DNA from: an uncultured Fodinibius sp.
GTDB taxonomy: Bacteria > Bacteroidota > Rhodothermia > Balneolales > Balneolaceae
NCBI GenBank assembly: GCA_913056455.1
Contig: CAJXMJ010000001.1
Span: 124,001 to 188,000, forward strand
Direction of reading: 5' to 3'
DNA: 64,000 bases
Below, one piece after another: positions 28,373 to 41,121 of this stretch; position 1 is the first letter of the stretch, and each line of letters begins with the position of its first letter. A model generated the notes under the pieces. The model made no database searches and was not told where the DNA came from. It was given only the letters and a program-made list of their open reading frames with translations. Made by a program: the position numbers and the translations under genes.

Positions 28373-30112
28373 TTAATATCCTTCGGCGGTACCGTCACCC
28401 CGCGGATCAGGTGATCCATATTTCAGGCCATTATCATCAATATAAATAGTATGTGCTCGGCCAACCCCACCTGTTGCACTTAGCGTGTGGCCCCATTCTT
28501 TGAGTTTTTCTCTTGTATCGGGACTCAGACCGAACTCTTCGTAATACAGTTTGTCAGGCATCCATTGATGGTGGAAGCGTGGAGCAGAGTTGGCTGCTTG
28601 GGGCTCCATGCCAAAGACTGTCATATTCAGAAAGTTGTGAAACGTGGCAGTAATGATACGGGGTCCGCCTGCAGCGCCCAGTACCATTCGTGTAGTATCA
28701 TTTTTCGTTACAATGGTAGGAGACATGCTGCTAAGCATCCTTTTTTTCGGTGCCACAGCATTGGCTTTCCCCTGTATTAAGCCAAACATGTTGGGTTCGC
28801 CCGGCTGAGCGGTAAAATCATCCATCTCGTTGTTGAGCAAAAATCCGGCGCCATCAACAGCAATTTTATTCCCGAAAGATCCGTTGAGCGTCGTAGTAAC
28901 TCCAACAGCGTTTCCATTTTTATCAACGATGGAAAAATGGGTGGTTTCTTTGGATTCCTGGTATTGTAATGGGTCACCGTGCGAAATACTGTCACTGGAA
29001 GAAGCCTTATTCCAGTTAAAGCTCTCCATACGTTGTTGATTATATTTCTCGGTTAATAATTCTAATTGAGGAATGTTGACAAAATCAGGATCACCGAGAA
29101 AGTGTGCTCGATCGGCAAAAGCCCTACGCATGACTTCTGTAACAAGATGAACATATTCGGCAGAGTTATACCCAAGCTCTTTTAAATTATAATCCTCAAG
29201 CATAGTTAACATTTGTGCAATGGCAATGCTTCCGCTGCTGGGGGGCGGCATGATATGCAGGTTAAATCCCTTAATGGTAGTTGTAACGGGATCACGCCAT
29301 TTACTTTCATAATTTTTGAGATCGCTGTAACTGATAATCCCCCCAAGTTCATCCATGGTATTGATAATACGATCAGCGGTAACGCCCGAATAAAATCCGT
29401 CTCTCCCCATTCGGGAAATACGGTCAAGGGTATTGGCTAAATCCTTTTGTACAAAAAGGTCTCCCTCTTGATACGGGGATCCGTCTTTCTTTGTAAAGTA
29501 TTTTTTGGAGGAGTGGTACTTTTCAAACTGTTCTGCTTTATCGTTAAGATCTTGGGCTTGCAGCCATGTGAGTGGATATCCTTCTCGGGCCAGTTTTATT
29601 GCTGGAGCCATAACCGTTTCCAGCGGAAGGTTACCGTACCGCTCAAGCGCTTTAATCATACCGTCAACCACTCCGGGAACACCGGATGCCAGGGCCGATC
29701 TTCTGCTGAGATCCGGTTGGTATTCCCCATCCTTAATGAACATATCTTTTGTGGCTTTTTGCGGAGCTCTTTCACGAAAGTCCAGAGAAGTAGTACCCCC
29801 ATCGGCCATATGTAATACCATGAATCCTCCGCCACCAATATTGCCGGCGCGTGGTTCGGTAACGGCCAATGCAAATTGTACGGCAACAGCAGCATCAACG
29901 GCATTACCGCCTTGCTGAAGTATCTTTTTGCCTACTTTTGAGGCATGTTTCTCGGCAGTTACTACAACCGCGTTTTGATAGGACTTTGCCCACCCGATCT
30001 GGGCAAAGAGAGCTTCGGATTGAGCCGTAAGAACAAAAACAAAAGTGAGGAGTATTCGTAGGACGGTTCTCATTTCAGGAAACTTAAAATTGGAATTGAA
30101 ACTTGCTCTCAA
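28373..30112 (-). CDS. ggt: Gamma-glutamyltranspeptidase, secreted
   Basis: N-terminal nucleophile hydrolase that cleaves the gamma-glutamyl bond of glutathione and similar peptides in the periplasm. 579 residues. A signal peptide ends near ALFAQ. GGNAVDAAVAVQFALAVTEPRAGNIGGGGFM lies at the start of the large subunit. Autocleavage before the Thr of KETTHFSIVD yields the small subunit with the nucleophilic Thr. GGPRIITA binds the glutamyl part. An internal ATG at 30073 (MRTVLRILL) gives a more ordinary signal peptide and may be the true start. Confidence 0.93.
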   Translation of the reverse strand: MRASFNSNFKFPEMRTVLRILLTFVFVLTAQSEALFAQIGWAKSYQNAVVVTAEKHASKVGKKILQQGGNAVDAAVAVQFALAVTEPRAGNIGGGGFMVLHMADGGTTSLDFRERAPQKATKDMFIKDGEYQPDLSRRSALASGVPGVVDGMIKALERYGNLPLETVMAPAIKLAREGYPLTWLQAQDLNDKAEQFEKYHSSKKYFTKKDGSPYQEGDLFVQKDLANTLDRISRMGRDGFYSGVTADRIINTMDELGGIISYSDLKNYESKWRDPVTTTIKGFNLHIMPPPSSGSIAIAQMLTMLEDYNLKELGYNSAEYVHLVTEVMRRAFADRAHFLGDPDFVNIPQLELLTEKYNQQRMESFNWNKASSSDSISHGDPLQYQESKETTHFSIVDKNGNAVGVTTTLNGSFGNKIAVDGAGFLLNNEMDDFTAQPGEPNMFGLIQGKANAVAPKKRMLSSMSPTIVTKNDTTRMVLGAAGGPRIITATFHNFLNMTVFGMEPQAANSAPRFHHQWMPDKLYYEEFGLSPDTREKLKEWGHTLSATGGVGRAHTIYIDDNGLKYGSPDPRGDGTAEGY

Positions 30113-30119
30113 ATATAGA

Positions 30120-30157
30120 AAAATATTACAAGGTCTCTATTTTGATGGGAACCTTGT
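30120..30157 (-). terminator. Terminator after the kinase N-terminal fragment
   Basis: On the minus strand, ACAAGGT / ACCTTGT (seven pairs, 16-nt loop) is followed by AATATTTTTC. It lies about 6 bp past the stop of the 62-residue frame and just ahead of ggt, so the fragment may still be transcribed as its own unit. Confidence 0.55.
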
Positions 30158-30162
30158 TGATA

Positions 30163-30351
30163 TTATTGGTCTTCCATGAAGTTTGACTCCTCAGCTTTTT
30201 GGATAGCTGCCAGCAAAGAAGAGACTTCTTGAAAAAGTACATCATTATTTTTGCAAGCTTTTTTGATGTATAGTTTTCTGCTTTCTGAATGATCTATTCG
30301 CATGGCTGTATCGATGATATCTTCAATTTTATTCCACCGTTGCTGATTCAT
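30163..30351 (-). pseudogene. Isolated N-terminal segment of a Ser/Thr kinase-TPR receptor (62 aa)
   Basis: The 62 residues align end to end with residues 1-60 of the kinase at 36359-39178: M-QQ-W-KI--I-DTA near the start, YI-K-ACK-N in the middle, and E-SNF--D at the end. It then stops at TAA before any kinase motif. Either it is what remains of a second kinase gene, or a free-standing adaptor module. A copy of the shared promoter-like element sits 22 bp upstream and a terminator follows, so expression is possible. Confidence 0.65.
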
Positions 30352-30372
30352 AAAGCAAAAACTATCCTTTCT

Positions 30373-30415
30373 CTTTTATTAGTATATGCGAGAAAAAAGG
30401 TGGAAATGGGCCAAA
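30373..30415 (-). promoter_or_regulatory. Shared promoter-like element, copy F (before the kinase fragment)
   Basis: On the minus strand: TTTG (30415-30412), exactly 19 nt of pyrimidine-rich spacer, then CTCGCATATACTAATAAAAG. It has the same TTTG-N19-nnCGYATR layout as copies A, C and E. The downstream half departs from the TACTATGTA seen in B and E. Confidence 0.5.
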
Positions 30416-30444
30416 AAGGTAGGGTTCCTTTTTATTTGAATGGG

Positions 30445-30486
30445 TTTGATCTTTTTTCGCCTGCCCCTACGTATTTCATTATGTAG
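30445..30486 (+). promoter_or_regulatory. Shared promoter-like element, copy A (before collagen-like gene 1)
   Basis: TTTG (30445-30448), a 19-nt spacer, then TACGTATTTCATTATGTAG (30468-30486), ending 29 bp before the ATG of the collagen-like gene. Matches copy B (TACGCATGTTGCTATGTAG) at 13 of 19 bases. Confidence 0.6.
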
Positions 30487-30515
30487 GGATTATTAATTCT
30501 AAAAAAAGTGAAGCT

Positions 30516-31397
30516 ATGCATCGATTAACACGAATTGTGACGTTACTTATAGTTTGTTCAATATCCATTTTTATGGCCTGCGAAGGTCCATCTGGCACCG
30601 AAGGGCCTCAGGGTCCTGAAGGACCAGAAGGGCCCGTGGGACCGGCAGGTGATGATGGAAGCATGATGTACTCCGGACAAGGTGCCCCGGATGCTGATAT
30701 TGGTAAAACCGGTGATTACTACCTTAATACTGGTACCGGTGAAATGTATGGTCCGAAAGATGAGTATGGGTGGGGAAATCCCATTATTGTATTGATGGGG
30801 GAAGATGGCACTAACGGACAGGATGGCGCGGATGGTGAAGACGGTAGTCAGATTTATTCGGGCAGTGGTGCTCCTGATGCCTCGTTGGGTGTTGAGGGTG
30901 ATTATTATCTTGATAAATTCTCTTACCACTTGTATGGACCGAAAACAGGAAGCGGATGGGGCACCCCATTGAATTTAAAAGGAGCTGATGGCAATGCTAA
31001 TGTGACTCGATATATATTTCCTGGATTTGATTTTAGTTCAAATTCACAATTTGTAGCTATATTCAGTGATTTGACAGAAATGGAGATGAAGCAGAGTTCT
31101 TGGTCAGTATATCTAATGTATGATACAGGAAGTAATCAGATCTATTACTCCGTGCCGGGACGTGCTCGAAATATTCTATACTCTGTTGAGCATAATTTCG
31201 TGAACGGGTCAATGTATTTACGAATAAAAACTGAGCCTAATACAACAGGAATACCCTATGATCAAATTGAAATAATTCGTACAGAGGCAAATAGTACTCA
31301 AGATAATACAGGCATTGCAGACACTGGTATTTTAGCTCCTGGTGGGTTGGATTTTTCGGATTATGAAGCCGTAGCTGAATATTATGGGTTTAAATGA
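30516..31397 (+). CDS. Collagen-like lipoprotein 1
   Basis: 293 residues. A lipoprotein signal ends IFMAC with Cys22. A Gly-X-Y run (residues 24-48, rich in GPE/GPQ/GPV) leads into two copies of a module of about 40 residues: YSGxGAPDxxxGxxGDYYLxxxTxxxYGPKxxxGWGxP, at about 52-95 and 109-152, separated by GTNGQDGADGEDGS. The C-terminal part (about 160-293) is unlike its paralogue at 33315 except for the tail DYEAVAEYYGFK. Likely an outer-membrane or surface protein forming a collagen-like trimer; the binding partner is unknown. Confidence 0.85.
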   Translation: MHRLTRIVTLLIVCSISIFMACEGPSGTEGPQGPEGPEGPVGPAGDDGSMMYSGQGAPDADIGKTGDYYLNTGTGEMYGPKDEYGWGNPIIVLMGEDGTNGQDGADGEDGSQIYSGSGAPDASLGVEGDYYLDKFSYHLYGPKTGSGWGTPLNLKGADGNANVTRYIFPGFDFSSNSQFVAIFSDLTEMEMKQSSWSVYLMYDTGSNQIYYSVPGRARNILYSVEHNFVNGSMYLRIKTEPNTTGIPYDQIEIIRTEANSTQDNTGIADTGILAPGGLDFSDYEAVAEYYGFK

Positions 31398-31461
31398 AAG
31401 GTAAGGATAGATGGGAAGTTTGACTTTAGAAAAAAAAGGGAAGTATAACCCCAAGATGTTG

Positions 31462-31810
31462 CAAAACCTATTTTGATGAGGCCGCCGCCAGTGTTACCCA
31501 GGAAATCATAGACCAAGGTACCGTATTGGCCTATACTAAGTTAGCTGGGGATGGAGGTAATATACGACCCCTTCCTGCGACCACTATCCACTCAAACAAG
31601 ATACTTTGGGGATATCACATCACGGGAGTAGGAAATATTCGTTTTACGGCCACAAGTGTAGACGCATCTAACATAAGTCCTGCTTCAACCAATGAGTATA
31701 GGTATGTCATTATTCCCGGCGGTACTTCAATCAGTAGTAAAGCCAAGAAAGAAAAATTAAAAGATATGTCATACGAAGAGGTTAAAAAGCGTTTTGGCAT
31801 TAAAGATTAG
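31462..31810 (+). pseudogene. C-terminal relic of a third collagen-like lipoprotein
   Basis: The frame reads TYFDEAAASVTQEIIDQGTVLAY... and ends YRYVIIPGG...SYEEVKKRFGIKD. This parallels YFDISANAMTQDIIDKG and RYVLIPGG...NYQEVKKYFGLPK of the intact gene at 33315. No lipobox, collagen run or module precedes it: upstream of about 31462 the homology stops and the frame has no good start (only TTG 31526). A strong terminator follows. It is best read as the 3' end of a gene lost by deletion. Confidence 0.7.
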
Positions 31811-31836
31811 AAGATAGCATAACATGCTAACAAAGA

Positions 31837-31868
31837 GGCCCTGTCGTTTTCGGCAGGGCCTTTTTTTT
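31837..31868 (+). terminator. Strong intrinsic terminator after the collagen relic
   Basis: GGCCCTG / CAGGGCC with loop TCGTTTTCGG, followed by eight T. It ends transcripts from the collagen-like gene 1 region. Confidence 0.88.
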
Positions 31869-31895
31869 ATGGGCATAAGATTAGCTGTTATAAAA

Positions 31896-31937
31896 AATGT
31901 CCCCCTTTCGTCTGACAATACGCATGTTGCTATGTAG
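31896..31937 (+). promoter_or_regulatory. Shared promoter-like element, copy B (before propeller lipoprotein 1)
   Basis: The core is TACGCATGTTGCTATGTAG (31919-31937), 45 bp before the ATG. The spacer is C/T-rich as in the other copies, but the -33 position reads AATG instead of TTTG. The right half GCTATGTAGC is itself a short inverted repeat. Confidence 0.55.
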
Positions 31938-31982
31938 CATGTCAAAGGAGTTGTTAATTATCATATTAAATAGACTATCATT

Positions 31983-33170
31983 ATGAGAAAATTCCTACGA
32001 ACTTTTTTACCTCTTTTGTTAATAGGATTGGTTATTTCCTGCGGAGATAACAGCACAGGCACCGATCCAGAACCTGAGCCGGACCCCGAACCCGAAGAGC
32101 CCACGACGGGGACGCTGGAAGTGACGACCAGTACCGGTGGCTCTGATATGGATTCCGACGGATATACCTTAACCGTAGACGGATCTGATCATTCCATTGG
32201 TACGGACGAGACTGTAACCGTCGAAGACTTGGAAGAAGGTAGTTACGATGCCGAACTCTCTGGACTTGCCGAGAACTGCTCGGTGGACGGGGACAACCCC
32301 CAACAAGTGGATATTACCGCGGAAAATACGACCACAGCCAGTTTTGATATTGCCTGCGAGGCGATGTTGAAAAATCAGATTGTGTTTGTTAGTGATCGTA
32401 ATACCAACATTAATTTGTATGTAACGAATCCGGATGGTACTGGACAGGAGCAGATAACCAATAGTTCGAGAAAAGAATATTATCCTTCGGTATCGCCCGA
32501 TGGCACCAAGATTGCATACACCAATATGTCAGACGGTAATATATATGTGATTAACGCAGACGGTACTAATCGCACCCAGCTCACCAGTTCTTCAGGTAAC
32601 GATCTGCTTCCCCGCTGGTCTCCCGATGGCAGTCAAATTTTATTTACCAGCAATCGTGATGGTGATGATGAAGTCTATATCATGAAAGCCGATGGCAGTG
32701 ATCAAACAAACGTGACGAATAATCCTAATGCCGATGATATTGCCGGAGCATGGTCTCCCGATGGTGATCGCCTTGCAATTTATAGTAACAGGGGTACAGA
32801 TGGTGATCAAGAGATCTATACGGTGAATGCCGAAGGGACAGCTCTGCAAAAGTTAACTGACAACACTCATTGGGATGGGGTACCCATCTACAGCCCGGAT
32901 GGCTCGCAGATTGCCTTTATAAGCGACCGGGATGGAAATAACGAAATATATGTAATGAATACTGATGGAAGCAGTCACCAGCGAGTAACAAATAATTCTG
33001 GGAGCGATCTTTTCCCCTCATGGTCGCCTGATGGAAGCAAGCTCTTGTTCCAAAGCGATCGGGACGGGAATGATGAAGTGTATACCATCAATAGCGATGG
33101 GACAGGTGCGACTAACCTAACGGTAAATACTGCTGAAGACGGCATCCCCTTTTGGAGCCCGGTCAAATAG
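31983..33170 (+). CDS. Beta-propeller (TolB/PD40-like) lipoprotein 1
   Basis: 395 residues. The lipobox ends LVISC (Cys20), followed by an acidic linker (PEPEPDPEPEEP). A domain of about 85 residues (43-127, LEVTTSTGG...SFDIAC) contains two Cys and is shared with the 34337 gene. Six PD40 repeats (about 130-395) follow, with phrases such as WSPDGSQILFTSNRDG and EIYVMNTDGSS, predicting a six-bladed propeller. TolB-like propellers bind proteins or sugars; the ligand is unknown. It has its own element (copy B) and terminator. Confidence 0.85.
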   Translation: MRKFLRTFLPLLLIGLVISCGDNSTGTDPEPEPDPEPEEPTTGTLEVTTSTGGSDMDSDGYTLTVDGSDHSIGTDETVTVEDLEEGSYDAELSGLAENCSVDGDNPQQVDITAENTTTASFDIACEAMLKNQIVFVSDRNTNINLYVTNPDGTGQEQITNSSRKEYYPSVSPDGTKIAYTNMSDGNIYVINADGTNRTQLTSSSGNDLLPRWSPDGSQILFTSNRDGDDEVYIMKADGSDQTNVTNNPNADDIAGAWSPDGDRLAIYSNRGTDGDQEIYTVNAEGTALQKLTDNTHWDGVPIYSPDGSQIAFISDRDGNNEIYVMNTDGSSHQRVTNNSGSDLFPSWSPDGSKLLFQSDRDGNDEVYTINSDGTGATNLTVNTAEDGIPFWSPVK

Positions 33171-33192
33171 AAGTTTACTACTAATATTTCTA

Positions 33193-33230
33193 AACCCACA
33201 GTGGTGATAATGCCGCTGTGGGTTATTGTT
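33193..33230 (+). terminator. Terminator after propeller lipoprotein 1
   Basis: AACCCACAG / CTGTGGGTT, nine perfect pairs with a 14-nt loop, followed by ATTGTTTT. The T-run is interrupted but the stem is strong. Confidence 0.7.
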
Positions 33231-33241
33231 TTGGAAATTAA

Positions 33242-33283
33242 TTTGTCCTCCTCCTGCTATTTGATACGCATGTTACTGTGTTA
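33242..33283 (+). promoter_or_regulatory. Shared promoter-like element, copy C (before collagen-like gene 2)
   Basis: TTTG (33242-33245), a 19-nt spacer, then TACGCATGTTACTGTGTTA (33265-33283), ending 31 bp before the ATG. The first 10 bases of the core are identical to copy B, although the genes downstream of B and C are unrelated. Confidence 0.6.
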
Positions 33284-33314
33284 ATGTATTGAATGTAAAT
33301 CAAACTGAGAATAT

Positions 33315-34205
33315 ATGCAGCAATTAACAAAAATAGCGTCATTTGTATTAATATTATTAGTATTTGGATTGGCTGGATGTGAAGGTCCAGCTGGTGAACA
33401 AGGCCCTCAGGGTCCAGAAGGTCCGGAAGGTCCTGTTGGTCCAGCTGGGGAAGACGGGAGCATGATGTATTCAGGGAGTGGAGCCCCCGATGCCAATACT
33501 GGCGAAAATGGGGATTATTATTTGGATGAAACGACAGGAGATCTGTATGGCCCGAAGAATGACCAAGGTTGGGGAACACCCATAAGTCTGCAAGGCCCTC
33601 CCGGTCAAGATGGACAGGATGGTGAGGATGGCAGTCAGATTTACTCTGGTACCAGTGCACCTCAGTCTTCTCTGGGAAAAGAGGGAGATTATTACCTAAA
33701 CACTAGTACATTTGATCTTTACGGACCCAAAACGAACAGTGGATGGGGCACGCCTATCAACTTAAAGGGAACAGCCAATGTGATGTATTCGAGCTGGGTA
33801 AATCCCCCACAATGGAATGGGAGTACGCAAACCACGACTAAATATCGCTACTTTGATATTTCAGCAAATGCAATGACACAGGATATTATTGATAAGGGAA
33901 TCGTAAAAGTATATACCGATTTCAATACTCAATCTGTTTATTCATTACCTGTAGGTAAAGCAGATACTCCGGGTAACCCCAATTATAGTTATTTTTTCCA
34001 GCTAAAACCTCAGCAATTGCGGATTGGTTATATGAATCCTGATGCCACCGGGACTCTTCCCATGGCTATCGGAACAAGTAGTAGTTTTCGTTACGTACTT
34101 ATTCCAGGTGGTAAAAGTTTAAAAGCAAAAGCTAAAAACGGCAAACTACCGATAGATTTGAATAATTATCAAGAGGTCAAAAAGTACTTTGGACTCCCAA
34201 AGTAA
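33315..34205 (+). CDS. Collagen-like lipoprotein 2
   Basis: 296 residues and the best-preserved member of the family. The lipobox ends GLAGC (Cys22), with a Gly-X-Y run over residues 24-48 and two YSGxGAPxxxxGxxGDYYL...LYGPK...GWGTPI modules separated by a second collagen stretch (GPPGQDGQDGEDG). The C-terminal domain (about 158-296) contains YFDISANAMTQDIIDKG and RYVLIPGG and ends NYQEVKKYFGLPK, as does the relic at 31462. Probably surface-exposed. It shares no Cys pairs or propeller with its neighbours. Confidence 0.86.
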   Translation: MQQLTKIASFVLILLVFGLAGCEGPAGEQGPQGPEGPEGPVGPAGEDGSMMYSGSGAPDANTGENGDYYLDETTGDLYGPKNDQGWGTPISLQGPPGQDGQDGEDGSQIYSGTSAPQSSLGKEGDYYLNTSTFDLYGPKTNSGWGTPINLKGTANVMYSSWVNPPQWNGSTQTTTKYRYFDISANAMTQDIIDKGIVKVYTDFNTQSVYSLPVGKADTPGNPNYSYFFQLKPQQLRIGYMNPDATGTLPMAIGTSSSFRYVLIPGGKSLKAKAKNGKLPIDLNNYQEVKKYFGLPK

Positions 34206-34225
34206 CTCCATAGAACAAGTAAGTA

Positions 34226-34252
34226 GGGGCACTGATATAGTGCCCCTTTTTA
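34226..34252 (+). terminator. Terminator after collagen-like gene 2
   Basis: GGGGCAC / GTGCCCC around TGATATA, followed by TTTTT. Compact and strong. Confidence 0.87.
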
Positions 34253-34336
34253 ATGGGATTTCAAGTTTACCCCTATCTACCTATCAGCATATAATAAACT
34301 TTAGAATGAGAATTGTATTAAGATAGTCTATTGATT

Positions 34337-35986
34337 ATGAAAAAATTGCTACAACTTACGACACTATTCATCACAATGCTATTTATGATTTCCTGTGGAT
34401 CGGATTCTGGAGGCCCAAACCCTGAAGTTACCAGTATCCAACCCGAAAACGGCCCATCAGGTACCTCTGTGACAATTGTCGGCAAAGGGTTTCGTCCCAA
34501 AGGAGATATGAGCGTGACCTTTGGCAGTAGCGCTGCTTCGCTTATTAGCGTTACCGAAGATCAAATACAGACGGAAGTGCCAGAAGGTCTGTCCGAAGGG
34601 TCAGCTTCTGTGGAGGTAAGCGTTGAAGGAGTAAGCGTTTCGGGTCCCAGCTTTATGGTAGAAGCGAAGGCCCCGGGCATCAGCGCCGTGGAGCCCGACA
34701 GCGGTACGGTAGGAACGGAAGTGACGATTAACGGCATGAATTTTAGTGGTAGTGCTTCAGATATTGCCATTGTTTTTAATGGTACTGATGCCCCGGTACA
34801 TAGTGCCTCGGGGGATCAGTTAGTTACCGAAGTACCACAAGGTGCAACGGATGGTCCAATCAAGGTTACTGTCAAAGAAAAGTTCACAACCGGTCCCGAT
34901 TTTGATGTGATTACTGACGGTGTACTTGAAGTGATTACACAGTCCAGCGGAGACGATCAAGACCCTGATGGTTATTCGGTGGCCGTGGATGGTTCATCAG
35001 GCAAATCTATAGATATCAATGATAAGATATATTACAAAGATCTGCAGAAAGGAAGCTATAACTTAGCACTTAGTGGTATTGCACAGAATTGTAGTGTCTC
35101 GGATAAAAACCCACGCAGTATAAGTATTAGTGCTGGAGATACCACATCTACCTCTTTTGATATTGAATGCCAAACCGTTATAAATGATCGAATTGCTTTT
35201 CAATCAAATAGAGGTTCTGTTGCTGATATTTATTTGATGGACCCAGATGGGGCAGATCAACAAGCATTGACCAATGATCCGGCAACGGATTATTTGCCAC
35301 AGATTTCTTATTCAGGAATGCGTGTGCTCTTTTCCAGCTACCGCAATGGAAACTTTAATTTGTTTGTCGTTAATGCTGACGGTTCAAATATTCGACAGGT
35401 TACAAGTTCTTCCGGGGAAACATTTAACGGTAGTTGGGCACCTGATGATTCTAAGATTGTGTTTGCGGATGACCGCAGTGGCAATGGTGAAATATATACC
35501 ATCGCATCCGACGGCAGTAATGAACAGCGGCTTACCAACAACAGTGTCAATGAGCAAGATCCCAGTTGGTCGCCTGATGGTAGTAAAATTGTATTTGTTA
35601 GGAAGAGGAAAAATGCAGGTTTTGATATTTATACGATGAATCCCGATGGCAGTAATGTAAATCAGTTGACAAGCACTAATTCTAGTGATGAAGATCCTGT
35701 ATGGTCTGCAGACGGCAGCAAGATAGCTTTTGTTAGCAGAAGGGATGGAAATGATGAAATATATGTAATGAATGCGGACGGCAGTAATACCCAGCGTATT
35801 ACAAACAATTCGGCAAGTGATGAATATCCCAGCTGGTCACGAGATGGGACAGAAATCATATTTGATTCCGATCGTGACGGGAATGATGAAATTTATAAAA
35901 TAAATGCTGACGGTACTGGAAGTCCTGTTAACCTTTCAAATAATAGTGCAAATGACCGATTTCCGGATTGGAGTCCGGTAGAGTAA
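34337..35986 (+). CDS. TIG-domain and beta-propeller lipoprotein 2
   Basis: 549 residues from ATG 34337; a TTG six bases upstream is in frame but less likely. The lipobox ends FMISC (Cys20). Two IPT/TIG immunoglobulin-like domains (about 30-112 and 113-190; PENGPSGTSVTIVGKGF and PDSGTVGTEVTINGMNF) come first. The domain of about 85 residues with two Cys, shared with the 31983 gene, follows (about 197-280), then six PD40 repeats. Bases next to the start codon resemble those of the 31983 gene, so the two are duplicates, one of which gained or lost TIG domains. Upstream, only a degenerate form of the shared element is seen (GCATATAATAAACTTT near 34288). Confidence 0.85.
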   Translation: MKKLLQLTTLFITMLFMISCGSDSGGPNPEVTSIQPENGPSGTSVTIVGKGFRPKGDMSVTFGSSAASLISVTEDQIQTEVPEGLSEGSASVEVSVEGVSVSGPSFMVEAKAPGISAVEPDSGTVGTEVTINGMNFSGSASDIAIVFNGTDAPVHSASGDQLVTEVPQGATDGPIKVTVKEKFTTGPDFDVITDGVLEVITQSSGDDQDPDGYSVAVDGSSGKSIDINDKIYYKDLQKGSYNLALSGIAQNCSVSDKNPRSISISAGDTTSTSFDIECQTVINDRIAFQSNRGSVADIYLMDPDGADQQALTNDPATDYLPQISYSGMRVLFSSYRNGNFNLFVVNADGSNIRQVTSSSGETFNGSWAPDDSKIVFADDRSGNGEIYTIASDGSNEQRLTNNSVNEQDPSWSPDGSKIVFVRKRKNAGFDIYTMNPDGSNVNQLTSTNSSDEDPVWSADGSKIAFVSRRDGNDEIYVMNADGSNTQRITNNSASDEYPSWSRDGTEIIFDSDRDGNDEIYKINADGTGSPVNLSNNSANDRFPDWSPVE

Positions 35987-36148
35987 GTCAATAGAGTCAA
36001 TTATATAGAGGTTAAGAATAACAAGGGTTAAATAGAAACTGTAACTGATTGCTACAAGTCTTATTGATAACCAAAATAAAAAGTAAAGGACGATTCAAGA
36101 TAGTCTCTTTAATAGGGTTTTGCTGAGAGATAGAACCTGTTAGATTTT

Positions 36149-36203
36149 ACCTCAATTTTAAAGAGGTTTGAGGTAGTATTTGAAATTGATTTGACCTCTT
36201 TTT
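36149..36203 (+). terminator. Overlapping stems after propeller lipoprotein 2, possible terminator
   Basis: Two exclusive pairings: ACCTCAA / TTGAGGT (36149-36174), or AAAGAGGT (36160-36167) with ACCTCTTT (36194-36201), the latter followed by more T. The second looks like a terminator with a long loop. Its right arm coincides with the spacer of element copy E, so reading from upstream and firing of E may interfere. Confidence 0.4.
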
Positions 36204-36231
36204 CTCTGTTGTAGCGCATATTACTATGTAA
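36190..36231 (+). promoter_or_regulatory. Shared promoter-like element, copy E (no gene downstream)
   Basis: TTTG (36190-36193), a 19-nt spacer, then AGCGCATATTACTATGTAA (36213-36231). It points right, toward the 3' end of the convergent kinase gene. Only a 45-codon frame (36286-36423) with no recognisable product follows. It may be a relic of a lost lipoprotein gene or a promoter for an antisense RNA. The rest of the 372-bp gap shows nothing else. Confidence 0.5.
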
Positions 36232-36358
36232 ACTTTCTACAGTTGAGAGGGATAAATTGTACAATAATCAATTACCCAAGGCAGTATGAAAGCTGTTTCG
36301 GGGTTTTATCTGGCTGACACCTTGTTAAACTGCCTGCTATATTTGCGGCGTAATATGA

Positions 36359-39178
36359 TTATATTTCGGATTTGTATTTATTTGCCATTGCTGGCTTTTC
36401 CCAGGTTTCGTAGAGTTTTATAATATTATTCTTGGCTTTTTGGGTAAAATTATCTGAAGCGCCTCGTTCTTCTGTTAGTGTTTCGTATGCTTGTAACAAA
36501 TAGGATTCAGCTTTTTGGTACTCGGTGCTTTTTATAAGGGCTTTTCCTAAGATTGATTTGCTATGGGCAATTTGCCAGCTCCCTCTATCATAAGATTTGT
36601 TTTTAATTGTTAAGGCCTCTTGCAATAAAGAAATGGCTTCTGTCAAGTTATTCTGAAGAACAAGCAGGTCCCCTAGTTCTGTAAGGATATCGGCTATTTT
36701 CCTATGATCCGAAGGTAATGTTGCCCTAAAAATCGACAGGGATTTCCGTAAATGGTTTTCAGCCATATTTAATGACCCATTTTCTTTTTCAATACGTGCC
36801 AAGTTTGCGAGGTCACCTGCCACATATGGATGCTTCTCACCAAAATTTTCTCGATCAATTTCAAGTGCTTCCTCCAGGTACGGATGTGCTTTTTCGTAAT
36901 TTTCCAGTTCTATATAAAGTCGCCCCAGGTTGTTTAAGCTTTCTGCAAGTTTTGGATGGAATTCTGAAAACAGTTTACGGCGCATAGCTACTGCTTTGGT
37001 CAAATAAGGTTTGGAATCTTGGTAACGGCCTTGTTGCCCATAAAAGATCCCAATATTATTATATGATTGGGCAATCTGTCTGTTAGGGGGTTTATAAAGT
37101 TGTTTATCAATCTCCAACCCTTTATGGTACAGAGAATCTGCCTTTTCAAGTTGCCCTTGCTGATTTAGTACTAAGGCAAGATCGTGATAACCCATTGCTG
37201 TACTTGGGTGGATGTCTCCTTTTTTCTTCTTCCAAATAGTCAATGCTTTTCTATAAAGCCCTTCTGCTTTTTCGTATTGTCCTTGTTTACGCAGAACTCC
37301 CGCTCTGTTATTGTACGTATGGGCAAGTTTGGGATGGCTGGGTTCGTAAAGCCGTTGTTGTATCTGGAGAACAGCCTTATAAACTGAATCGGCCTCCTGA
37401 TATTTACCCCGCTGGTCAAGTATTAAGCCAAGCTCATTTAATCCATTTGAAAGTAGCGTTTCATTTTTAGGAGGATTGTTTCTAATTATAGAAATGGATT
37501 CGCGGGTCAGCGATTCTGCTTCTGCAAAATTTCCTCTTAGTCGTTGAAAAACGACTAATGCATCAAGGCTCTGTGAGTACGCGATACTGGTAGTTCCTTG
37601 ATATGTTTTTCTAAGCCGGAGACTTTTTTGTAGCAGGGGGCTTGCCTTCTCAAATCGTCCAATCTCGGTATAGGCTCTTCCCATTACTTCAAGCAGCTGA
37701 GCCTGGACTTCCGGCTGATTTTCGAGCTGATCAATACGTTCTTCTCCTCGCTTTAAAAAAGTGGCAGCGGTAACAGTATCTTGGGGATTGTAATAGGGAT
37801 TACTGGCCCGGAACATATCCGTAAGAAATTTACTCACTTCTTGGGCTTTTTGAGCTTCCAATTGTGCCTTATTACGTTCCTGTGTAATTTGCAAGGTATA
37901 AAAAGCAGTAAAGCCAATTATAAATAGCAAGAAACCAGCTGCTGCTGACAACCTGGTTTTGTGACGCTTTATAAATTTGGATGCATTGTAACGGAAAGTA
38001 TCTTCACGGGCGATAATAGGCAGATCGGTTTTACGCCTGTTAATGTCTTCCAGCAGCTGCTCGGCCGAACTATACCTGTGATCCGGTTCTTTACGCAAAG
38101 CCTTTAACACAATAGCATCGAGATCACCTTTGATGGTACTGATCAAGGCATTGGGGGAGATATTCCTCGTTTCTCCAATTTGTTGCTGTTTCTGAGAGGA
38201 TAACTCGCTAAATGTTTCTGAAGGGGCTTTGGGTTGTTCTTCTCGGATTTGCTCTTCAATTTCCACAAGCTTTTTATCATCCATATCAAATGGATGAACA
38301 CCGGCCAAAAGTTCAAATAAAAGGATGCCGAGCACATACGAATCAGTAGCTGTTGTTATAGGCTGGCTTTCTAATTGCTCGGGCGCTGCATAGCCCAATG
38401 TAAGCATGCGAGCCCCGGTACGTGTCTGAAAAGTGGCTCCGTCCTCATCGGGGTCCATAAGTTTAGCAATACCGAAATCCAGCACTTTTACTTCGCCCTT
38501 GGTATCTACCAAAATATTAGAGGGCTTTAAATCACGATGGATGATTGTATTTTGATGGGCATGCTGAACGGCTGAGCAGACTTGTTCAAATAACGCCAAG
38601 CGTTTTTCAATTGACAGCTTATTTTTATCACAGTACTGCAGTAAAGGGGTGCCATTTACATATTCCATGACCAGGTATGGCATTCCTTCTTCAGTAAGTC
38701 CCCCATCAAGCAAACGAGCAATATTGGGATGTTCTAAATTCGCTAAAATATTACGCTCGCGTTTAAAACGGGCAATATTTGAGGGGGTATCCATCCCTCG
38801 CCGTAATATTTTAACAGCTACTTTTTTTTCGTATGCTTCATCTGATCGTTCAGCCAGAAATACCGATCCCATCCCGCCATGTCCGATAAGATCAATAAGT
38901 TTGTACTTGCCTATGGTAGTGCCCAGGAGGGAGGAAGTGTGTTTTTCGGTTTCCTGTTCCGAGATTTCGCGGGCAAGGTGCAGGGGATAATCATCGGTAT
39001 CTCCCAAAAAGTTTTCCGTATCGGATTGCTCAATCGAAGCAATAAGTTCGGTTACCTGTCGCTTGAGTTGTTTATTGCCCTTACACTCTTCTTGGATATA
39101 TATCGATTGTTCCTTTTTACTTAGATCAAGAGCGGTATCTACAATACGATTAATTTTCTTCCATTGCTGCTGATCCAT
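36359..39178 (-). CDS. Membrane Ser/Thr protein kinase with C-terminal TPR domain
   Basis: 939 residues. A family-specific N-terminal module (1-60) is followed by a Hanks-type kinase domain (about 92-365): glycine loop GHGGMGSVFLAE, Lys123 in VAVKIL, HRDLKPSN with Asp216, DFG at 234-236 and APEQ. All catalytic residues are present. A transmembrane helix (about 405-428) leads to some ten TPR units (about 470-930), predicted to be outside the cytoplasm. It starts 17 bp after the sigma factor gene, so the two form an operon. A role in sensing envelope proteins and controlling the sigma factor is inference. Confidence 0.93.
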   Translation of the reverse strand: MDQQQWKKINRIVDTALDLSKKEQSIYIQEECKGNKQLKRQVTELIASIEQSDTENFLGDTDDYPLHLAREISEQETEKHTSSLLGTTIGKYKLIDLIGHGGMGSVFLAERSDEAYEKKVAVKILRRGMDTPSNIARFKRERNILANLEHPNIARLLDGGLTEEGMPYLVMEYVNGTPLLQYCDKNKLSIEKRLALFEQVCSAVQHAHQNTIIHRDLKPSNILVDTKGEVKVLDFGIAKLMDPDEDGATFQTRTGARMLTLGYAAPEQLESQPITTATDSYVLGILLFELLAGVHPFDMDDKKLVEIEEQIREEQPKAPSETFSELSSQKQQQIGETRNISPNALISTIKGDLDAIVLKALRKEPDHRYSSAEQLLEDINRRKTDLPIIAREDTFRYNASKFIKRHKTRLSAAAGFLLFIIGFTAFYTLQITQERNKAQLEAQKAQEVSKFLTDMFRASNPYYNPQDTVTAATFLKRGEERIDQLENQPEVQAQLLEVMGRAYTEIGRFEKASPLLQKSLRLRKTYQGTTSIAYSQSLDALVVFQRLRGNFAEAESLTRESISIIRNNPPKNETLLSNGLNELGLILDQRGKYQEADSVYKAVLQIQQRLYEPSHPKLAHTYNNRAGVLRKQGQYEKAEGLYRKALTIWKKKKGDIHPSTAMGYHDLALVLNQQGQLEKADSLYHKGLEIDKQLYKPPNRQIAQSYNNIGIFYGQQGRYQDSKPYLTKAVAMRRKLFSEFHPKLAESLNNLGRLYIELENYEKAHPYLEEALEIDRENFGEKHPYVAGDLANLARIEKENGSLNMAENHLRKSLSIFRATLPSDHRKIADILTELGDLLVLQNNLTEAISLLQEALTIKNKSYDRGSWQIAHSKSILGKALIKSTEYQKAESYLLQAYETLTEERGASDNFTQKAKNNIIKLYETWEKPAMANKYKSEI

Positions 39179-39195
39179 ATAAAAACACTCTCGAA

Positions 39196-39759
39196 TTATT
39201 CTTTTTTCAATTCTTTATAAAGCCATCCCCGTGCCTTGGCCCAGTCGCGTTTGACAGTACGTTCGGAAATTCCCAGTGCGTTGGCCGTTTGATGAACCGT
39301 CATTTGGCCGAAGTAACGAAGTGTTACTACATCAGCCATTCGTTCATCCAGTTGAGCAAGCTCATCTAATTTCTCATCGATATTGATGATTTTTTCAGAC
39401 TCTTGACGGGCTTTTAATAACTCATCGATATAGGTAATATCTTTTTGTTTACCGCCGCGTTTCTCTGCTTTCTTTTTTCGTGCGTGATCCACCAGGATTT
39501 GACGCATACAACGAGCTGAAATAGCCAGAAAGTGATTCTTGTCATTGGCTTCAATGCTGGTTTGGTTTATCATTTTCAGGTAAACCTCGTGTACAAGTTC
39601 GGTCCCCGAAACAGTAATATCATCGTGTTCAGCCTGCAGCTTTGAATAAGCCAACCGCTTAAGTTCGCTGTAAATAAGAGGAAATAGCTCGTCGTAGGCC
39701 TCTCCGTCACCTTCCTGAACTCTAATTAGCAGCTTGGTGACCTTAGATTTTTCCTTCAT
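39196..39759 (-). CDS. ECF-type RNA polymerase sigma factor (Sigma70_ECF / TIGR02999 type)
   Basis: 187 residues. Region 2 contains LKRLAYSKLQAEHDDITVSGTELVHEVYLKM and HFLAISARCMRQILVDHARKKKAEKRGG, the hallmark of the ECF branch found beside Ser/Thr kinases in Planctomycetes, Acidobacteria and Balneolota. Region 4 reads LDERMADVVTLRYFGQMTVHQTANALGISERTVKRDWAKARGWL. No anti-sigma gene is adjacent; in this group the partner kinase is thought to regulate it. Upstream I see TTTG-N20-TATTTATA, a possible promoter, and not the CGYATR element. Confidence 0.93.
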   Translation of the reverse strand: MKEKSKVTKLLIRVQEGDGEAYDELFPLIYSELKRLAYSKLQAEHDDITVSGTELVHEVYLKMINQTSIEANDKNHFLAISARCMRQILVDHARKKKAEKRGGKQKDITYIDELLKARQESEKIINIDEKLDELAQLDERMADVVTLRYFGQMTVHQTANALGISERTVKRDWAKARGWLYKELKKE

Positions 39760-39929
39760 GATCCCTAAAATTCATCAATTGTTCTCCTATAAATACAAAG
39801 GCTCATCTTTATGATCAAAATATGGAACAAGTTATTTGGCACTTCGAATATTCTAACCAGAGAGTGCAAGAAACCTTAAATAAAGATGAACCAGTTCTGG
39901 TTAGTGTATCGCAGCCTGTTTCACCAGTA

Positions 39930-40105
39930 GTACTGGAAGTATTACTACGATGAATAGCCATTGATTGTGTAAGCAGGCTATCTGCTTTACCCAATTAGCC
40001 TAATTCGAAGTATACTTGTCCCATCACCGTTTTTAATTCTGCTTCATCCGAGCCCTTTTTAACCTGAAGTAATAACTGGGTAATTTCTGATTTGGTCTTT
40101 GACAC
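39930..40105 (-). pseudogene. Relic of a second sigma-kinase operon (sigma N-terminus fused to kinase TPR)
   Basis: A GTG at 40105 opens 36 codons. Residues 5-22 (KSEITQLLLQVKKGSDEA) match residues 4-21 of the ECF sigma factor (K-S--T-LL--V--G--EA). From residue 26 the sequence switches to TVMGQVYFELG, matching kinase residues 497-508 (EVMGRAYTEIG). A stop at 39995-39997 follows, yet the homology continues beyond it (LGKADSLLTQSMAIHR against FEKASPLLQKSLRLRK). A deletion from early sigma to mid-kinase in an operon like 36359-39759 would create exactly this. The rest of the 453-bp gap (39760-40212) shows no intact gene. Confidence 0.6.
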
Positions 40106-40212: not shown

Positions 40213-41121
40213 TTATGCTCTTGGGTGAAACTCTTTATGTACCTGGTGAAGCAGGCTGCGATCCACGTGTGTATAAATTTCAGTAGTGTTGATGGACGCA
40301 TGTCCCAGCATTTCCTGTACGGCGCGGAGATCGGCTCCGCCTTCTAACAGATGAGTGGCAAAAGAGTGGCGAAAAATATGGGGATACACATTCTTTTCGA
40401 TTCCGGCACGTTCGGCGGCATCATTTACGATATTCCATATACTCATGCGTGAAAGTGGGTTGCCACGCTGACTCAGAAAAACTTTGTTTTCGGCTTTATG
40501 TGGATTTTTATCACTCTGAAATCTTGGCCGAACAACCTCAATATAGTGTTCCAATGCCGATTGGGCCATTTCTCCGACGGGGACCAGGCGTTCCTTATTA
40601 CCCTTGCCAACCACGCGGATGAATCCGATTTCAAAGATTAGATTATCAAGTTCCAAACTGGTGAGTTCGCTGACACGCATACCGGTGGCATAGAGTGTTT
40701 CCAGAATAGCGGCATTGCGTATGCCGGCATCGGTTTCACGATTTGGGATATCAATGATAGCAGAAACTTCATCCGGATTTAATACATCCGGCAAATTTTT
40801 TGCTTTCTTAGGCAAATCAACCAATTCGGCGGGATTTGCTTCTGCCATTCCTTCAACAACGGCAAACTCGTGGAAGCCACGGATGCTGGATATGTTTCTT
40901 GCAATAGAGCTTACCGATAAGTCCATAGCTGTAAGCTCCTCAAGGTAGTTTTCGATATGACGAAGTTCTACGCCTCCCAAGTCAGAAATTTGCAAGTCAT
41001 TAGCTACGAATTTTAAATATCGCTCCAGATCATTTTTATAAGATACAACGGAGTTCTCTGACAAACTTTTTTCCAATTTAACAAACTGGATATACCGCTG
41101 TAACTCTTTTTTAAAATGCAT
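40213..41121 (-). CDS. xerD: Site-specific tyrosine recombinase XerD
   Basis: Tyrosine recombinase acting with XerC at dif to resolve chromosome dimers. 302 residues. A SAM-like N-terminal core-binding domain (LSENSVVSYKNDLERYLKF) is followed by the catalytic domain with Arg in ATGMRVSELTSL, HIFRHSFATHLLEGG, LGHASINTTEIYTHV (His and nucleophile Tyr) and GKGNKERLVPVG. Length and sequence fit the chromosomal XerD, not an integrase of a mobile element. The start is 5 bp from the pgpH stop, so they are co-transcribed. Confidence 0.93.
   Translation of the reverse strand: MHFKKELQRYIQFVKLEKSLSENSVVSYKNDLERYLKFVANDLQISDLGGVELRHIENYLEELTAMDLSVSSIARNISSIRGFHEFAVVEGMAEANPAELVDLPKKAKNLPDVLNPDEVSAIIDIPNRETDAGIRNAAILETLYATGMRVSELTSLELDNLIFEIGFIRVVGKGNKERLVPVGEMAQSALEHYIEVVRPRFQSDKNPHKAENKVFLSQRGNPLSRMSIWNIVNDAAERAGIEKNVYPHIFRHSFATHLLEGGADLRAVQEMLGHASINTTEIYTHVDRSLLHQVHKEFHPRA

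Follow-up and report, generated by a model that had tools for sequence, protein, structure and literature searches.

Does the ECF sigma factor encoded in a cluster of surface lipoprotein genes of an uncultured Fodinibius sp. control these genes, and is it itself switched on by the membrane kinase encoded beside it? The question is raised by a block in the window (the whole 64,000-nucleotide stretch analysed here, from a genome of 3.28 Mb in 7 contigs), which lies between two genes that we take, judging by their protein sequences, to be ggt (28373-30112) and xerD (40213-41121). The block contains a sigma-kinase pair and four intact lipoprotein genes; a collagen-like gene in truncated form, a mini-gene and a relic complete it. 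Its features, including the copies of a predicted promoter, are as follows:

30163..30351 (-), mini-gene of 62 codons and a stop, a free-standing copy of the kinase N-terminal domain
30386..30415 (-), predicted promoter TTTGGCCC-N17-CGCAT, 34 nt upstream of the mini-gene start codon
30445..30474 (+), predicted promoter TTTGATCT-N17-CGTAT, 41 nt before collagen-like lipoprotein gene 1
30516..31397 (+), collagen-like lipoprotein 1, 293 aa
31526..31810 (+), decayed collagen-like gene, C-terminal part only
31896..31925 (+), predicted promoter AATGTCCC-N17-CGCAT, 57 nt before propeller gene 1
31983..33170 (+), PD40 beta-propeller lipoprotein 1, 395 aa
33242..33271 (+), predicted promoter TTTGTCCT-N17-CGCAT, 43 nt before collagen-like lipoprotein gene 2
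33315..34205 (+), collagen-like lipoprotein 2, 296 aa
34337..35986 (+), TIG and PD40 beta-propeller lipoprotein 2, no recognised promoter copy upstream (start taken as the ATG at 34337; the open frame itself begins at TTG 34331)
36190..36219 (+), orphan promoter copy TTTGACCT-N17-CGCAT, directed at the 3' end of the kinase gene
36359..39178 (-), membrane Ser/Thr kinase-TPR
39196..39759 (-), ECF sigma factor, 187 aa, PF07638 / TIGR02999
39955..40108 (-), relic: sigma N-terminus TKSEITQLLLQVKKGSDEA, then a TPR-like piece with a stop (TPR assigned by eye)

Gene content of the block and its recurrence

The genes listed in the original prediction, i.e. the sigma-kinase pair, two collagen-like and two propeller lipoproteins and a decayed collagen gene, are all present. 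Of the two sigma-kinase relics that it also listed, the one at 40.0-40.1 kb is genuine and appears to be what a deletion left of a further sigma-kinase copy, while the one at 30.2-30.35 kb turned out to be the intact, conserved 62-codon gene with its promoter. An additional decayed sigma-kinase copy, with a broken sigma gene followed by the broken start of a kinase gene, was observed in another Fodinibius genome (L257, G010 C1:1365900-1366600).

The window sigma factor scores above the curated cutoffs of both TIGR02999 (199 bits, cutoff 126.15) and PF07638 (157 bits, cutoff 21.1), and the TIGR02999 label given to it earlier is correct. Its gene is separated from the kinase gene by 17 nt and no anti-sigma gene adjoins it, the other intact neighbours being xerD and the lipoprotein genes. 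Region 2.2 includes Thr53, within SGTELVHE, with SGTE standing where other ECF sigma factors have DAED; this threonine is conserved in 66 of 67 sigmas. Judging from PMC8999054 and PMC13147305, Thr53 occupies the position of the EcfP/EcfK phosphosite, which in EcfP is the second Thr of STTA (PMC8999054) and is aligned here with the Thr of SGTE. The motif of ECF43 is STTA or QTTA, whereas most of the sigmas compared here carry an acidic fourth residue (47 of 67), which speaks against a plain ECF43 assignment, and the sigma factor is possibly not fully inactive before phosphorylation.

The kinase has a Pkinase domain (residues 92-377), a single hydrophobic segment (~408-433) and, after this segment, a C-terminal TPR array. 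In its predicted structure (mean pLDDT 78) a three-helix domain (residues 3-54) is followed by a low-confidence linker to the kinase domain, and the best PDB match is 9eed (171 bits), an entry named in the PknS paper (PMC13147305). The protein fits the PknS-type receptor plan of an N-terminal extension, a Hanks kinase domain, one transmembrane segment and a TPR C-terminus; the periplasmic location earlier predicted for the TPRs is borne out at the level of topology only, with the kinase domain before the hydrophobic segment and the TPRs after it, as in PknS. PMC13147305 describes the N-terminal segment of PknS as 83 aa long, conserved among Xanthomonadaceae homologs and not visible in the crystal; a flexible linker bearing three to four helices is predicted for it, and a functional role is considered possible.

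The two collagen-like lipoproteins (30516-31397 and 33315-34205) carry a lipoprotein anchor; apart from a C-terminal region they contain GDYYL...YGPK...GWG modules, which are repeated, and only a short Gly-X-Y stretch. Since they miss the gathering cutoff of Pfam Collagen (PF01391, cutoff 27.2; 24.6 and 26.7 bits), we call them "collagen-like" only; matches to the SclA/SclB/Lcl models are weak (best 36.9 bits, curated cutoffs 325-500). The predicted structure of collagen-like lipoprotein 2 (mean pLDDT 64) has no PDB fold match at E <= 0.001, and from such a middling model without a fold match the function cannot be read. The frame at 31526-31810 is 5'-truncated and 35% identical to residues 175-294 of the intact collagen-like protein.

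The same genome harbors a second locus (~C1:1172180-1180670), in which one strand carries the genes of three lipoproteins (DUF1565/PKD, collagen-like and PKD), divergent from a sigma gene (product 59% identical to the window sigma) that has its kinase with it. A survey of 78 genomes of the order (this one included), which contain up to ten TIGR02999/PF07638-type sigmas each, found, at the score cutoffs applied, the sigma in 43 and the collagen-like protein in 21, all 21 within the 43. A sigma gene lies within 10 kb (start to start) of 34 of the 56 collagen-like genes in the 21 genomes (rows of one gene merged by hand), compared to 1.15 expected by random placement and a maximum of 8 in 200,000 trials, and at least one collagen-like gene is linked in 12 of the 21 genomes; as orthologous loci are not independent, owing to common descent, these linkage counts and the site counts given below overstate the certainty. 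The two loci hold fixed positions in most Fodinibius genomes mapped, and the lipoproteins within them differ in number and kind. A lack of co-occurrence of these families in other genomes, which by the original prediction itself would have spoken against it, was not seen; the neighbourhood check found the composition to recur in relatives as well as at the second locus. The coupling of sigma and collagen-like genes looks lineage-restricted, since at 12 loci with the collagen-like module outside Balneolaceae (L170, L172-L182) no such sigma was found in the sequence examined. R. sulfatireducens (L158) has a collagen-like gene with 69% identity, and neither a sigma gene nor an exact promoter site was found within 10 kb on each side of it.

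The predicted two-part promoter and its targets

The repeated promoter-like element noted in the original prediction is real (plus-strand copies at 30445, 31896, 33242 and 36190), but as described it is only half of a two-part promoter: it corresponds to the -10 half and the sequence after it, while the -35 half lies 17 nt upstream and was found by placing the upstream regions of the two loci side by side, where the spacing is constant. The alignment of these regions yields the predicted promoter TTTGWSCY-N17-CGYAT, located mostly 35-75 nt ahead of the start codon; the copy at 31896 deviates from the -35 consensus at bases 1 and 2. The copy at 36190, behind which no gene was found, may either have belonged to a lipoprotein gene since lost or give rise to antisense RNA.

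A somewhat broader consensus, TTTGWNCY-N17-CGYA[TG], was fixed on the window genome and tested in 11 other Fodinibius genomes, using simple rules of our own for gene, lipobox and export calls, which miss some lipoproteins. Exact sites stand ahead of collagen-like genes in 18 of 35 cases, of the other genes called as lipoproteins in 7 of 43 and of sigma/kinase genes in 1 of 69; for the remaining genes the figures are 6 of 258 near sigma and 0 of 54 far from it. The six near-sigma genes encode four lipoproteins by sequence (missed by the lipobox rule) and two barrel-like proteins that have a signal peptide. With the reverse strand as control, the counts were 0/35 for collagen-like, 1/43 for lipoprotein, 3/69 for sigma/kinase, 1/258 for near and 1/54 for far genes. 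Among other spacers (14-16 and 18-20), 18 yielded two collagen-like and two sigma/kinase genes and 16 yielded one match, and no exact match was found before the collagen-like genes of these genomes at spacers 14-16, 19 and 20.

Genome-wide, 87 exact sites were counted against 27 reversed-pattern controls in the 12 Fodinibius genomes, and 132 against 105 in the 66 other genomes. Outside Fodinibius, where the loci examined contain 13 collagen-like, 39 lipoprotein, 63 sigma/kinase and 285 other genes, exact sites precede 1, 1, 1 and 2 of these, respectively, so that the consensus carries little signal there. A weight matrix applied to 16 sigma-unlinked collagen-like loci (L137-L146, L148-L152, L154) gave scores of at least 16 for nine (eight from Fodinibius, one from G014), 11 for the Fodinibius locus L149 and none above 10 for six loci outside Fodinibius. 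Two simpler searches were discarded: the -10 half alone (TASGYATNTTNCTRTGTW) showed no excess (24 sites within 2 mismatches, 30 controls), and the one-mismatch whole-genome scan was too loose (145 sites, 99 controls).

After removal of one duplicate, 86 exact sites from the 12 Fodinibius genomes were examined for their targets; 21 lie inside called reading frames and 65 outside, 55 are followed by a gene start within 260 nt, and 10 have no gene start in range. With 21 sites in frames and 10 lacking a gene start, the motif alone predicts only part of the targets. The products of 52 of the 55 site-bearing genes are exported, membrane-bound or lipoprotein-like (42 of them lipoprotein-like), a count biased in favour of exported targets, as the rule took the start codon with the strongest export signal among the alternatives. 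The three exceptions are a kinase, a mini-gene and a membrane protein whose family passes the rule in two other species. As a control, the first 20 sites listed in sigma-less family members include 3 outside frames and none before a gene. Recurrent targets away from sigma include a ~270 aa lipoprotein (G001, G005, G007, G011), barrel-like proteins and a carboxypeptidase-regulatory-like lipoprotein (PF13620, 33.0 bits, cutoff 32.3). Altogether, the recurrence of the loci and the exported-gene targets support the proposal that the sigma-kinase pair and the lipoproteins form one unit, and the site pattern makes it very likely that the sigma factor drives the lipoprotein genes.

The promoter was also observed in three species before the gene of a ~340 aa conserved membrane protein that is not a lipoprotein (L191 in G005, L200 in G007, L203 in G001) and in several species before genes of small outer-membrane-barrel-like proteins (L192, L206, L207, L208, L108, L118); two barrel-like site bearers occur outside Fodinibius (G014, G032). 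In G006 (L081, L195, L221, L222) promoter copies and starts of propeller-lipoprotein genes are repeated at several contig ends, and the repeated propeller genes may drive rearrangement in this genome. Promoter-like copies are found right before the kinase gene at the loci L089, L091 and L094, where the sigma belongs to clade B (see below), and also at L098, L109 and L113 (exact in L089 and L098, relaxed in L091, L094, L109 and L113); this arrangement suggests that the kinase would be autoregulated at these loci, though not in the window.

Sigmas of the window type (clade A, nine sequences) and those of clade B (eight sequences) can be told apart by 24 columns without overlap, including columns 167 (R/S) and 174 (A or T/M) in region 4. 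Clade-A loci favour TTTGT with CGC, and clade-B loci favour TTTGAGC with CGT: of the 32 sites at clade-A loci, 22 have T as the fifth -35 base and 25 have CGC, and of the 13 at clade-B loci none has this T and 3 have CGC, in a comparison that is descriptive, since its 45 sites follow a relaxed pattern, are orthologous and hence not independent, and include three likely chance matches (L043 18161, L089 5218, L082 19375). In these sites, promoter version and sigma clade tend to go together. At several A loci one collagen-like gene has a CGTAT promoter (30445 in the window, L077, L080, L082, L083, L084), which hints at cross-talk between the clades. Clusters of two to three same-family sigma genes with separate kinases and lipoproteins were observed at L087 and L088 (in G010 and G004); both include a lipoprotein gene with TTTGAACC-N17-CGCAT, perhaps a third promoter version.

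The assignment of the promoter to this sigma is itself predicted from sequence, the motif precedes many unlinked genes too, and with up to ten sigmas of the family per genome the element could instead be the promoter of a different Fodinibius sigma (or of a sigma with an activator), the TIGR02999 pair being only a neighbour of the lipoprotein genes. Such a reader is unlikely, however, as the enrichment of sites is confined to the genus with clade A/B sigmas, the promoter version switches with the clade at the two loci, sites also precede the kinase gene at the clade-B loci L089, L091 and L094, and F. salsisoli (G007), with a B-like sigma in the A position, has a B-like promoter before its mini-gene.

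The mini-gene

That the kinase fragment at 30163-30351 is a relic finds no support: its 62-codon frame is open, with a start and a stop, is conserved and has its own predicted promoter. The mini-protein corresponds to the three-helix domain ahead of the kinase domain. A census of the 78 genomes (E <= 0.01) found an intact mini-gene, one each, in 10 of the 12 Fodinibius genomes (absent from G002 and G009) and no intact short frame outside the genus; a weaker extra short frame of 86 aa occurs in G004 (L116). Both ggt and xerD are in the stretch read for six of the ten mini-genes, and one of the two for four. In F. sediminis (G001) the mini-gene lies between ggt and xerD with no other frame >150 aa, and in F. 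roseus (G011) it shares this interval with a 489-aa frame that resembles, by eye, part of a TonB receptor; no sigma or kinase was found in the interval in either species. In G006 the mini-gene is again between ggt and xerD, and a sigma-kinase pair lies beyond ggt on the other side.

A promoter with spacer 17 and a relaxed -35 half is positioned 32-65 nt ahead of the start in 10/10 mini-genes. Of 846 genes called neither lipoprotein nor collagen-like, 11 have the same relaxed pattern upstream; by sequence these include six lipoproteins or exported proteins and four kinases. The promoter of the G001 mini-gene ends with CGCAT, the clade-A version, in a genome whose sigmas are only 61% and 46% identical to that of the window. 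Values of dN/dS are 0.12 (G010-G004), 0.21 (G003-G008) and 0.69 (G006-G004), obtained for the only three of 28 pairs (eight mini-genes) with dS of ~1 or less, the rest being near or beyond saturation.

Alternatively, the mini-gene could be what is left of the 5' part of an old kinase gene, without function and decaying slowly: it matches the kinase N-terminus only, the same block contains a true sigma-kinase relic and G010 a broken copy, and it is missing from two Fodinibius genomes. The dN/dS of 0.69 in one unsaturated pair and the CGCAT promoter in G001 add weight to this explanation and to that of another sigma. Nonetheless, the frame has stayed open at 60-63 codons in 10/10 genomes despite identities down to 33% among pairs of the eight compared, the other two unsaturated pairs have low ratios, and the promoter with its exact spacing is kept in all ten, including the two genomes where no sigma-kinase pair or cassette adjoins; decay without function therefore appears quite unlikely. 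A free-standing domain under the same promoter would most simply be a feedback part. Tentatively, and with somewhat less than even confidence, we propose that the mini-protein is a regulator derived from the N-terminal docking domain of the kinase, made under the control of the sigma factor, which would displace the sigma or a kinase partner from the kinase and so exert negative feedback on sigma phosphorylation; being kept where no sigma-kinase pair adjoins, it would also act in trans on other such pairs. Among the matches listed in the open-licence literature there is no paper on a free kinase N-terminal domain. If the proposal is true, the PknS-type N-terminal extension would have a function, namely substrate docking, and a conserved 62-aa protein makes the role of the extension directly testable.

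The proposed switch and known systems

On the evidence of sequence and of analogy to characterized systems, we consider it probable that a kinase-activated ECF sigma switch controls a surface lipoprotein regulon, in which the mini-protein possibly serves as a feedback component. As the original prediction has it, the TPR part of the kinase may read the state of the lipoproteins, and these may be adhesins or bind glycans. By analogy with PknS, a signal at the periplasmic TPR region would activate the membrane Ser/Thr kinase, which would then, as in EcfP/EcfK, phosphorylate the sigma encoded next to it; the likeliest target is Thr53 of region 2.2. The active sigma is predicted to open TTTGWSCY-N17-CGYAT promoters, which would serve the collagen-like, propeller and PKD lipoprotein genes beside it and, elsewhere in the genome, genes for more lipoproteins, outer-membrane-barrel-like proteins and one membrane protein. 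Two sigma clades at two fixed chromosomal places would read two related promoter versions, and the 62-aa mini-protein may compete for the partner docked by the N-terminal domain of the kinase, be it the sigma or another kinase molecule. Propeller gene 2 without a recognisable promoter, the copy at 36190 without a gene, and the mini-genes of G001 and G011 without an adjoining sigma-kinase pair count against this switch. That the block is instead an ordinary adhesin or surface-protein island, whose genes travel together by position without common control, would agree with cassettes that vary between genomes in gene number and kind and contain decayed copies, and with lipoproteins of very different folds in the same places, but is very improbable, as the promoter also precedes unlinked collagen-like, lipoprotein and barrel-like genes and the 20 control sites show no such pattern.

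Among the matches listed in the open-licence literature, no paper joins this sigma family with collagen-like lipoproteins or Balneolota. The collagen-like adhesins Scl1/2 and Lcl share with the proteins described here a short Gly-X-Y stretch in a surface-type protein, but the latter have a lipoprotein anchor, the GDYYL...YGPK...GWG modules and a C-terminal region without a PDB fold match. As far as the available parts of the sources go, kinase-activated sigmas have been worked out in few bacteria: EcfP/PknT, EcfK/PknS and one in Hyphomonas. EcfP/PknT of Vibrio parahaemolyticus (ECF43) likewise pairs an ECF sigma with a Ser/Thr kinase and no anti-sigma, and has the phosphosite Thr in region 2.2 where other ECFs have DAED; its targets are polymyxin-resistance genes, whereas a surface lipoprotein regulon is predicted here, the fourth motif residue here is acidic (SGTE, often SKTE in clade B), and the available parts of PMC8999054 and PMC8103513 do not mention a free kinase N-terminal gene. 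EcfK/PknS of Xanthomonas citri (ECF43; PMC13147305) has the same kinase plan (N-terminal extension, kinase, one transmembrane segment, periplasmic TPRs); its output is a type VI secretion system against amoebae, in contrast to the predicted lipoprotein regulon, and the N-terminal part is here also a separate gene with a sigma-type promoter. The individual parts are of known kinds; the predicted regulon, the promoter code in two versions and the free N-terminal domain were not met among the matches listed in the open-licence literature. The system would add a different output, a surface lipoprotein coat, to those of the kinase-activated sigmas. Its predicted promoter code is sharp enough for testing, and a single genome would contain two paralogous sigma-promoter pairs whose specificity has diverged.
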